The notes beneath the pieces were generated by a model, which made no database searches, was not told the DNA's origin, and saw only the letters and a program-made list of their open reading frames with translations. Of a stretch of DNA of 64,000 bases, positions 793 to 6,396 are shown piece by piece (position 1 is the first letter of the stretch; each line of letters opens with the position of its first letter). Source of the stretch: Candidatus Helarchaeota archaeon (lineage in GTDB: Archaea > Asgardarchaeota > Lokiarchaeia > Helarchaeales > RDOG01). The stretch lies in NCBI GenBank assembly GCA_019058315.1, contig JAHPZH010000004.1, positions 248,001 to 312,000 of the forward strand, written 5' to 3'. The position numbers were made by a program, and so were the translations under genes.

Positions 793-2379
793 TCTTTTCT
801 AATTACTGGAAAGCTTAGTAATAATCGTGAATTTACGCAAAATATCAATCCAGATATTTCAATCCTCAATTTAAGAGAAAAAGAGATCTCTGAAATTGAT
901 TTAAGAATTCTTCAAAATTGTAAAAATCTTAGAGGTCTATTTTTATCAGATAATAAAATAAAGGAATTAAATCTTGAGCCACTCCAAAAATGTCCAAAAT
1001 TTTCGGATCTTGATATATCTAATAATTTATTTAATTCTGTAAATCTCAATCCCCTACAAAATTGTAAAAATCTCAAGTCATTATTTTTAGATCATAATTT
1101 TTTGACTAGTATTAATCTTAAACCACTCAGAAATTGCACGAAACTTATCGATATTACACTATCTTATAATAAATTTGAAGAAGTGGATTTAAGCCCTTTG
1201 AAAAGTTGTAAAAACCTTGAAACACTCAATTTACAAGATAATGAATTAAAAGAACTTGATTTATCACATTTTAATAACTTCCCAAAGCTTAAATCAATAA
1301 TATTACCAACAAATCAATTGAAAGAGCTTAAATTATATAATTTTCCCAATCTTCACGATTTGGATTTGAGAAATAATAGGCTACCAGATTTGGATATTAA
1401 TCCATTGAAAAACTCTATTAAATTAATGAGGATAAATTTAAATTCTAACCATCTGACCTCTTTTGACTTTCAACCTCTTCAAAATTGTACTAATCTTGAA
1501 TATATTTATTTAGTTGATAATAAAATTAAAAAATTAAATTTGATTTCACTTCCAAATCTTCAAAATCTTAATTCAGGAAGCAATCAACTAAATGAGTTAG
1601 ATTTAACTCCAATCAAATATTCTAAAAAATTATATTCTATTATTTTGAGTAAGAACCAACTACAAGATATAAAATTAGTTGAATTACCTAATCTTGAAAC
1701 ACTTTATCTAAATGAAAATCAACTAAATTCAATAGATTTAACTCCTATTCAAGGTTGTTCGAAATTAAGCCAAATAGATCTATCATTTAATAATTTGAAA
1801 ATAATTGATCTTTCTCCTTTAAAAAAATGTAAAGACTTTCAATACTTAAATTTAAACGATAATCCCTTGGAAAAATTAAATTTAATACCACTAATGTATT
1901 GTTCTAAATTGAGGATTCTAAATTTATTTAGAACCTCTTTAAGCTCTCTGAATTTAACTCCATTGAAGCATACCACAATACAATATCTAGATTTAAGTGA
2001 ATGTAAATTGAAGAGCGTAACCCTATGTCCAATGAAAAATCTAAGTAGTCTTGATTTAAGAATTAATCAAATTTCTTCTTTAGATCTATCTCCACTCAAG
2101 CAAAGTCCTAAACTAAACACTCTATATTTGTTTAATAATCAGTTAAAAAATTTAGATCTCTCTCCTCTACAGTCTTGTATAGAATTACGAGACCTTAGAT
2201 TGACAGATAATCCAATAACATCTTTGGATATTACTCCGCTTCTCGGTTTAAAAAATCTAACATATATTGTAATTAATAATGATACCAAACTTCAAATCCA
2301 AAAATCTAAAAAAAAGAAAAAAATCAGTTCTAAAGTAGTTAGAGATTTAATTAAAAATCGATCTATTGAATGGATTTAA
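793..2379 (+). CDS. Leucine-rich-repeat protein without a recognisable start codon
   Basis: About 20 leucine-rich repeats of roughly 21-24 residues run through the whole protein, with consensus LDLSPL..C.KL..L.L..N.L. The C-terminus ends in a lysine-rich stretch. The first ATG/GTG/TTG codon is the TTG at 1102, but the same frame is open back to the TAG at 790-792 and already encodes repeats from about base 850 (for example NCKNLRGLFLSDNKIKEL). The N-terminal repeats are therefore real coding sequence and the usable start is missing, non-canonical (ATT at 802 is a candidate), or lost by a mutation or sequencing error. Such proteins act as protein-binding scaffolds; no partner is evident. No signal peptide or membrane segment is visible. 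Confidence 0.75.
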   Translation, partial: SFLITGKLSNNREFTQNINPDISILNLREKEISEIDLRILQNCKNLRGLFLSDNKIKELNLEPLQKCPKFSDLDISNNLFNSVNLNPLQNCKNLKSLFLDHNFLTSINLKPLRNCTKLIDITLSYNKFEEVDLSPLKSCKNLETLNLQDNELKELDLSHFNNFPKLKSIILPTNQLKELKLYNFPNLHDLDLRNNRLPDLDINPLKNSIKLMRINLNSNHLTSFDFQPLQNCTNLEYIYLVDNKIKKLNLISLPNLQNLNSGSNQLNELDLTPIKYSKKLYSIILSKNQLQDIKLVELPNLETLYLNENQLNSIDLTPIQGCSKLSQIDLSFNNLKIIDLSPLKKCKDFQYLNLNDNPLEKLNLIPLMYCSKLRILNLFRTSLSSLNLTPLKHTTIQYLDLSECKLKSVTLCPMKNLSSLDLRINQISSLDLSPLKQSPKLNTLYLFNNQLKNLDLSPLQSCIELRDLRLTDNPITSLDITPLLGLKNLTYIVINNDTKLQIQKSKKKKKISSKVVRDLIKNRSIEWI

Positions 2380-5684: not shown

Positions 5685-5808
5685 GCAGAGGTGTCCGAGT
5701 CTGGTCAAAGAAACAGCTTTCAGTATGCTGATTAATTTAACTAAAGGAGCAGGACTGAGGCTCCTGTGGCGAAGGCCTGCGTGGGTTCGAAGCCCATCCT
5801 CTGCACCA
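5685..5808 (+). tRNA. tRNA-Leu (GAG) with a D-arm intron
   Basis: Acceptor GCAGAGG/CCTCTGC, anticodon stem CAGGA/TCCTG around CTGAGGC (anticodon GAG), a 14-base variable arm as in class II tRNAs, T stem GTGGG/CCCAT and an encoded CCA. The 5' D stem TCC finds its partner GGA only after skipping about 36 bases from around 5726 to 5761. The insert contains CAGC/GCTG as an internal stem. The mature tRNA would be 88 bases. Confidence 0.88.
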
Positions 5809-5841: not shown

Positions 5842-6396
5842 ATGCAAGATATTATTAAAAACACTAAAAATATAATGAAACAGCGAGGCTACAAGATAAA
5901 AGAGCAGGAAAAAGTAGATAAGAACAAAGTTTTTTTAATATGTGAAAAGGCGACAGGAAAGACCACAGAATCTGCTCAAGTACTGATCTTAGGAGAGGTT
6001 GAAACACTCGGAGTAGCGATGGTAAGAGATATCGTAAAAGAAATGAATAAGAAAAAAATTAAAAATAAATTGATAATAGGTTCTGGCAAAGTCACAAGAA
6101 GTGCAAAAAATGAAATGATTGCAAATAAAATTGATTTTATTCCAACACAATTAGTCTTAATGAATATCCTAGAACATGAATTTGTTCCAAAACATGAAAT
6201 AATTCCACATGAAGAGATACAAACAATATTGGAAAAATATAGAATTACTGAAGATTTGCTTCCACAAATCTTAGATACAGATCCCGTCTCTAAAATTATA
6301 GGCGCTAAGCCCGGCGACGTTGTTAAAATAACTCGTAAAAGTCTTACAGCTGGTGAAAGCATAATCTACCGTCTATGTGTAAAAGGTGAAGAATGA
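5842..6396 (+). CDS. rpo5: RNA polymerase subunit Rpo5/RPB5 with an N-terminal domain
   Basis: Residues about 107-184 are the RpoH/RPB5 assembly domain: ILEHEFVPKHEII, LLPQILDTDPVSKIIGAKPGDVVKITRKS and TAGESIIYRL. It joins the polymerase near the downstream DNA. Canonical archaeal Rpo5 is only about 80 residues. Here about 105 residues precede it, and they align by eye with the eukaryotic RPB5 jaw domain: KNTKNIMKQRGYKI against the first RPB5 helix, then the GVAMVRDIVKEM, KLIIGSGKVTRSAK and FIPTQLVLMNILEHE segments in the same order. The gene stands alone after a tRNA rather than ahead of rpoB. The ATG at 5842 is the only sensible start. Confidence 0.9.
   Translation: MQDIIKNTKNIMKQRGYKIKEQEKVDKNKVFLICEKATGKTTESAQVLILGEVETLGVAMVRDIVKEMNKKKIKNKLIIGSGKVTRSAKNEMIANKIDFIPTQLVLMNILEHEFVPKHEIIPHEEIQTILEKYRITEDLLPQILDTDPVSKIIGAKPGDVVKITRKSLTAGESIIYRLCVKGEE

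Follow-up and report, generated by a model that had tools for sequence, protein, structure and literature searches.

The rpo5 gene of the window

The window, that is the whole stretch of 64,000 nucleotides analysed here, carries an open reading frame for 184 amino acids on the forward strand (5842-6396, +), with an ATG start and without an internal stop. In a Pfam scan its product matched Rpb5_C (Pfam: PF01191) at residues 107-179 with an E-value of 2.8e-30, over the full profile (1-73), and it scored 104.9 bits with the NCBIfam model PRK09570, RNA polymerase subunit H, for which the cut-off is 83. The protein is a genuine Rpo5/RPB5 with an assembly domain and, in the position of the eukaryotic jaw, a folded N-terminal domain. 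That an N-terminal part precedes the assembly domain had been proposed from the sequence, and the Pfam annotation agrees, with residues 1-106 lying before residues 107-184. The features are as follows.

5842..6396, +: rpo5 gene, full-length RPB5-type subunit of 184 amino acids with jaw and assembly domain (Pfam, phmmer, AlphaFold2, Foldseek)
5842..6159, +: jaw domain at the N-terminus (residues 1-106) with an Mrr-type REase-like fold that lacks the catalytic lysine (profile, hhalign, fold)
5884..5892, +: RGY motif, residues 15-17, equivalent to R26-G27-Y28 of yeast RPB5 (92-jaw alignment)
6094..6105, +: loop of the T-x-x-A type (TRSA at residues 85-88), counterpart of TPSA 117-120 in yeast RPB5 (92-jaw alignment; DNA contact from PMC6690254)
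6160..6393, +: assembly (C-terminal) domain, residues 107-184, common to all archaeal Rpo5, predicted to bind Rpo1 (Pfam, NCBIfam, phmmer)
L083:5775-6338: second jaw-bearing rpo5 of the same genome, convergent with the TFB gene at L083:6413-7369 (-)

Just 5' of rpo5, positions 5685-5808 (+) resemble an intron-containing tRNA with complementary 7-base ends and a T-arm (GGGTTCGAAGCCC); neither ARAGORN nor Rfam made a call for this tRNA-like element. A leucine-rich-repeat protein of 425 amino acids is encoded at 1102-2379 (+).

The genome of the window (5.79 Mb in 12 contigs) has two Rpb5_C genes, both of them jaw-bearing. The second one (G000:C1:150104), which adjoins the TFB gene, encodes 188 amino acids, is 74% identical to the window protein and has the same N-terminal domain. 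RGY and T-x-x-A are present in both copies, and with a dN of 0.18 against a dS of 1.74 (dN/dS about 0.10) purifying selection seems to act on both. Since there is no jaw-less Rpo5 in this genome, its RNA polymerase presumably uses the jaw-bearing copies. Plant and trypanosome RPB5 paralogues are specialised or regulatory variants, and it is possible, though in our view rather unlikely, that the two copies here are not both core subunits and that one of them, perhaps the window gene, has such a role. The presence of two intact copies at this identity would fit, as would the tandem rpo5 pairs of many genomes of one Asgard family (f28); the strength of the purifying selection between the copies and the retention of both motifs argue against it. 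A specialised copy would be compatible with the explanation we prefer below, in which the jaw-bearing Rpo5 is a working polymerase subunit.

Relation of the N-terminal domain to RPB5 and to Mrr-type nucleases

When the whole window protein was used as phmmer query, human, fly, plant and yeast RPB5 were aligned continuously from residue 42-55 to residue 178-180. As this alignment is unbroken from about residue 42-55 to the C-terminus, the RPB5 match extends into the jaw. The motifs of the N-terminal domain follow the order of the eukaryotic jaw, RGY, LGV, T-x-x-A and then the linker between jaw and assembly domain; the LGV at 56-58 corresponds to VGV 88-90 of yeast, and T-x-x-A to the TPSA loop. 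The original prediction was therefore right about the order of the eukaryotic jaw and not quite right about its length, as the window domain is slightly shorter and lacks the extra stretch that eukaryotes have after RGY. Jaw identity between the window protein and eukaryotes is only 15-19%.

The Pfam family RNA_pol_Rpb5_N (Pfam: PF03871) did not match the window protein. It matched six of 44 archaeal relatives at E <= 1 (best 1.8e-5) and was over its cut-off in one Asgard frame, with neighbours inside that frame. The model fits eukaryotes, and a match to it is a detection aid and not a biological feature. As a survey tool it was too weak and gave mostly noise on Asgard sequences, and our own N-domain profile was used instead. 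Single-sequence Pfam scans of the window N-domain returned matches to the REase-fold families NA-iREase1 (1.8e-5) and Mrr_cat (0.003), both sub-threshold, and none to Rpb5_N, so we built an alignment of 44 Asgard and Bathyarchaeial N-domains, trimmed before the assembly domain. Searched against all PDB sequences, this N-domain-only profile placed 13 eukaryotic RPB5 on top (E-values 1.1e-9 to 0.0075); the first unrelated match had an E-value of 0.4, and only eukaryotic RPB5 were found below 0.01. Comparison of the archaeal N-domains with five eukaryotic jaws by hhalign gave a probability of 97.1 and a score of 63.1, against a maximum of 16.4 in 100 column shuffles and 12.8 for the reversed profile. 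The yeast and Arabidopsis RPB5 sequences used were those of the PDB chains 1dzf_A and 7eu0_E (identical over the full length), and those of K. phaffii, S. pombe and human were taken from PDB alignments.

AlphaFold2 with the full-length alignment gave a model with a mean pLDDT of 93.6 and a pTM of 0.82. Its top 36 Foldseek matches in the PDB were eukaryotic RPB5 chains together with an RPB5 homologue encoded by a large DNA virus; most spanned about 200 aligned columns, and TMq reached 0.83. Jaw-less archaeal Rpo5 ranked after them with about 70-76 columns. The length of the RPB5 matches implies that both domains and their mutual arrangement match RPB5. The N-domain modelled alone (pLDDT 91.5) matched RPB5 with TMq 0.65-0.75, mostly at least 0.70, and the MspJI and AspBHI nucleases with 0.52-0.61, so that the predicted fold is nearer to the RPB5 jaw than to Mrr-type nucleases. 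Two outcomes had been named as refuting the jaw reading, a different fold of residues 1-106 and the lack of a significant profile match to RPB5. Neither occurred. The N-terminal jaw is homologous to the eukaryotic jaw and is joined directly before the assembly domain.

In a residue alignment of 92 jaws (65 Asgard, 22 Bathyarchaeial and five eukaryotic), T85, which is T117 of the yeast TPSA loop, is invariant (92/92), and A88 (yeast A120) is kept in 85. The arginine of RGY (R15, yeast R26) is found in 89 jaws, namely 62 of 65 Asgard, 22 of 22 Bathyarchaeial and 5 of 5 eukaryotic ones. Column 98 holds a glutamate in 80 of the 92 jaws and an aspartate in the window protein. In the TPSA-type loop of the window protein the threonine and the alanine are kept and Pro118 is replaced by Arg; elsewhere this position is Pro, His, Gln or others. 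In RPB5, Thr117, Pro118 and Ser119 are reported to contact the downstream DNA (PMC6690254).

The N-terminal domain of yeast RPB5 is already known to have a PD-(D/E)XK fold without the catalytic residues (PMC551604, PMC1185551). Aligned with archaeal Mrr-type proteins, none of the 92 jaws has the catalytic lysine of the QxK motif. Of the 65 Asgard jaws, 21 still have D in the column of the catalytic aspartate; none of the five eukaryotic jaws does. Judged by its catalytic residues, the window jaw does not appear to be an active Mrr-type restriction endonuclease. The Pfam family Mrr_cat matched all 44 archaeal jaws at E <= 1 (best 2.4e-12) and three of the five eukaryotic jaws weakly (best 0.0024). 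By these matches, the archaeal jaws tie the RPB5 jaw to the Mrr branch of the nuclease fold.

Among known proteins, the window protein is thus most like eukaryotic RPB5 (RPABC1; yeast 1dzf, human POLR2E), with which it has in common the order of jaw and assembly domain, the fold, the interdomain arrangement, RGY, the T-x-x-A loop and the absent catalytic lysine; it differs in the low jaw identity, in TRSA where eukaryotes have TPSA, and in the shorter region after RGY. Mrr-type REase-fold domains (Mrr_cat, Pfam: PF04471; NA-iREase1, Pfam: PF22722; MspJI and AspBHI) have the core fold and the VGV and T-x-x-A segments in common with the jaws, which differ in lacking the QxK lysine and in being fused to Rpo5.

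Distribution and gene position of long and short Rpo5

Rpb5_C was over its cut-off in 204 of 228 Asgard genomes, and the jaw was found at E <= 1e-9 in 124 of the 228, which represent 19 of 29 coded families and one doubtful genome of family f7. The listed Asgard jaw matches fall inside Rpo5 frames found with Rpb5_C. Only the short form was found in families f5, f6, most of f7, f8, f9, f10 and f25. In Bathyarchaeia, sampled as the class to which the named Bathyarchaeota locus L032 belongs, the jaw was detected at E <= 1e-15 in 162 of 251 genomes, and in a sample of 398 Thermoproteota genomes all 19 matched loci examined had both jaw and assembly domain. The N-domain profile found no jaw in three other archaeal samples, namely the class that includes a Thaumarchaeota genome (150 genomes), the phylum that includes a Nanoarchaeia genome (148) and the phylum that includes an Archaeoglobaceae genome (295); in the last of these, only four Mrr-type proteins of 353-370 amino acids matched. 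The jaw had been noticed as a feature of one archaeon; its presence there holds, but it is not peculiar to that archaeon and occurs in most Asgard families and most of the Bathyarchaeia sampled.

Contamination or misassembly as the source of the window gene is ruled out by the distribution of the jaw over 124 genomes. It seems to affect single genomes of the survey. The jaw gene of the doubtful f7 genome (G160) is nearly identical to that of family f20 and lies on a contig of 7.6 kb (G160:C416; L020, L078), which looks like contamination, and the short Rpo5 genes of G013 (L056) and G166 (L063, L084) are unlike those of their family and probably stem from contaminating contigs.

The canonical archaeal rpoH lies directly upstream of rpoB. 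Canonical Rpo5/RpoH (1hmj, 4qiw, 2waq) has about 80 amino acids and no jaw, and its assembly domain is 43-56% identical to that of the window protein, which has 184 amino acids and is not encoded next to rpoB. We detected rpoB with a profile from four rpoB proteins, one of them checked by Pfam. Downstream of jaw-less Rpo5, rpoB was found within about 250 bases in 33 of 33 loci (20 Asgard, 13 from other archaea), an outcome unchanged by the suspected contaminants G013 and G166, which are included. Downstream of jaw-bearing Rpo5 it was found in none of the 64 loci with enough sequence (61 Asgard, three Bathyarchaeota), nor in further Bathyarchaeial jaw-bearing loci. The association is strong by locus (Fisher p 1e-26) and, counted by Asgard family because the loci are related, also for 7 against 19 families (p 1.5e-6). 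That canonical archaeal Rpo5 lacks the jaw, as the original prediction stated, is correct for these short, rpoB-linked forms. No Asgard genome in the 228-genome survey was seen with both forms.

The two counts suggest that the short form is the original gene of the operon and that the long form was relocated and took its place. Truncation of a long gene followed by its return into the operon is unlikely, and replacement, or the sorting of two ancestral genes, is the more likely course. Simple secondary loss of the jaw in f5-f7, in the window's own class, was considered and is disfavoured because the short gene there retains the canonical rpoB position. The split into long and short forms with operon position is new here and provides a clean marker for archaeal polymerase evolution.

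Origin and proposed role of the archaeal jaw

The RPB5 jaw has been described as eukaryote-specific (PMC2675907, PMC3906176, PMC6690254), and on account of it Rpo5/Rpb5 shows the largest size difference of all subunits common to archaea and eukaryotes (PMC2675907). A search of the open-access literature turned up no archaeal Rpo5 described as having a jaw; an earlier report may exist in subscription papers or preprints. The parts seen of PMC13257274, which surveyed archaeal RNAP subunits in 2026, do not mention it. Its presence in most Asgard families and most Bathyarchaeia shifts the origin of the jaw into archaea, with an Mrr-type nuclease domain as its likely source.

In a tree of jaw and C-terminal domain (92 rows) Bathyarchaeia stand on one side (97/81) and the placement of eukaryotes is weak (37/71). 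A supported placement or rooting of eukaryotes was sought with 71 columns of the C-domain, 113 of the N-domain and 193 of the two combined, and none was found; the deep forks are without support. AU tests rejected neither eukaryotes inside nor eukaryotes outside the archaeal jaws, nor Bathyarchaeia outside Asgard, nor a single clade of all jaw-bearing C-domains (p 0.12) or of the window's class (p 0.37). An ancestral or a transferred jaw had both been envisaged. The trees choose neither; the greater diversity of the archaeal jaws and their closeness to the Mrr nuclease family make a eukaryotic donor look unlikely. The polymerase jaw is probably older than eukaryotes.

The explanation we prefer, and consider very likely, is that the window protein is a working RNA polymerase subunit of RPB5 architecture whose jaw arose by an Mrr-type fusion in archaea and was inherited by eukaryotes. 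The long gene would have left the rpoH-rpoB operon, or never occupied it, and would exclude the operonic short gene within each lineage. Homology, fold, domain order, loss of the catalytic lysine, distribution and the contrast in gene position are shown by the analysis; assembly into the polymerase, contact with DNA and the direction of descent are inferred from them. Independent fusions of an Mrr-type REase-fold domain to Rpo5 in eukaryotes and in archaea, which would make the two alike in fold only, are improbable. Mrr_cat does match all archaeal jaws and Rpb5_N only six of 44, and eukaryotic jaws could branch just outside the archaeal ones; against this, domain order and junction are the same, the alignment continues through the linker, and the archaeal N-domain fold is nearer to RPB5 than to nucleases. 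Moreover, in an N-domain tree with 23 Mrr-like domains the Asgard, Bathyarchaeial and eukaryotic jaws separate from the nucleases (99/97, in all bootstraps), and the R of RGY and E98 are common to jaws and atypical of the Mrr set. Gain of the archaeal jaw by transfer from eukaryotes or their viruses, compatible with the C-domain tree and with the proto-eukaryote/Heimdallarchaeia transfer argued for other genes (PMC12395588), is very improbable given how many Asgard and Bathyarchaeial genomes carry the jaw, a diversity far above that of the five eukaryotes, and the stronger traces of nuclease ancestry in archaeal jaws, both in Mrr_cat matches and in the catalytic aspartate column.

For the course of an archaeal fusion before eukaryotes, we lean slightly towards an archaeal ancestor of Asgards and Bathyarchaeia that had two alternative Rpo5 genes, or towards exchange of these genes between the two groups. 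One would have been short and fixed in the rpoH-rpoB operon, the other long and free-standing, its jaw a domesticated nuclease. Lineages would have kept either type, and eukaryotes the long one. On this view, a restriction-type nuclease gave rise, before eukaryotes, to the clamp on downstream DNA in Pol I, II and III.

In the proposed mechanism, the C-terminal domain would dock on Rpo1, the largest subunit, as throughout archaea, and the jaw, a nuclease-fold domain that lost its catalytic lysine, would lie in the outermost downstream part of the DNA cleft. From its fold and conserved loop, we infer that it may act as the Pol II jaw does and grip the duplex DNA ahead of the bubble via the T-x-x-A loop. 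In the Sulfolobus polymerase, Rpo13 partly fills the place of the jaw (PMC2675907), which suggests that archaea, too, use this site to handle DNA. We found no biochemistry on any Asgard polymerase in the literature. Pyrococcus RpoH with a yeast jaw fused to it proved unstable in vivo (PMC3906176), which makes natural archaeal jaws preferable for such tests, and full-length archaeal subunits are now available for direct tests that until now depended on artificial chimeras.

Several Asgard families have further variants of Rpo5. In f13 and f14 (L098, L100, L103, L105, L108, L111, L114) the protein has about 440-500 amino acids, with two or three jaw-like domains in tandem ahead of the assembly domain, at roughly 50-122 (weak), 160-260 and 276-393; L100 is a truncated copy. 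The tandem jaw-bearing pairs of f28 (L065, L066, L068, L069, L088) lie about 650 bases apart in many genomes. A long repetitive tail rich in Lys, Ala and Pro follows the assembly domain in f12 (L091, L093, L097, L102), and in f23 and f24 (L107, L109, L110, L112, L113) about 20 extra residues are inserted ahead of the last strands of the assembly domain. At one locus (L055:3788-4138, genome G008) a gene for an OapC-like (origin-associated) protein lies directly upstream of the jaw-bearing rpo5.
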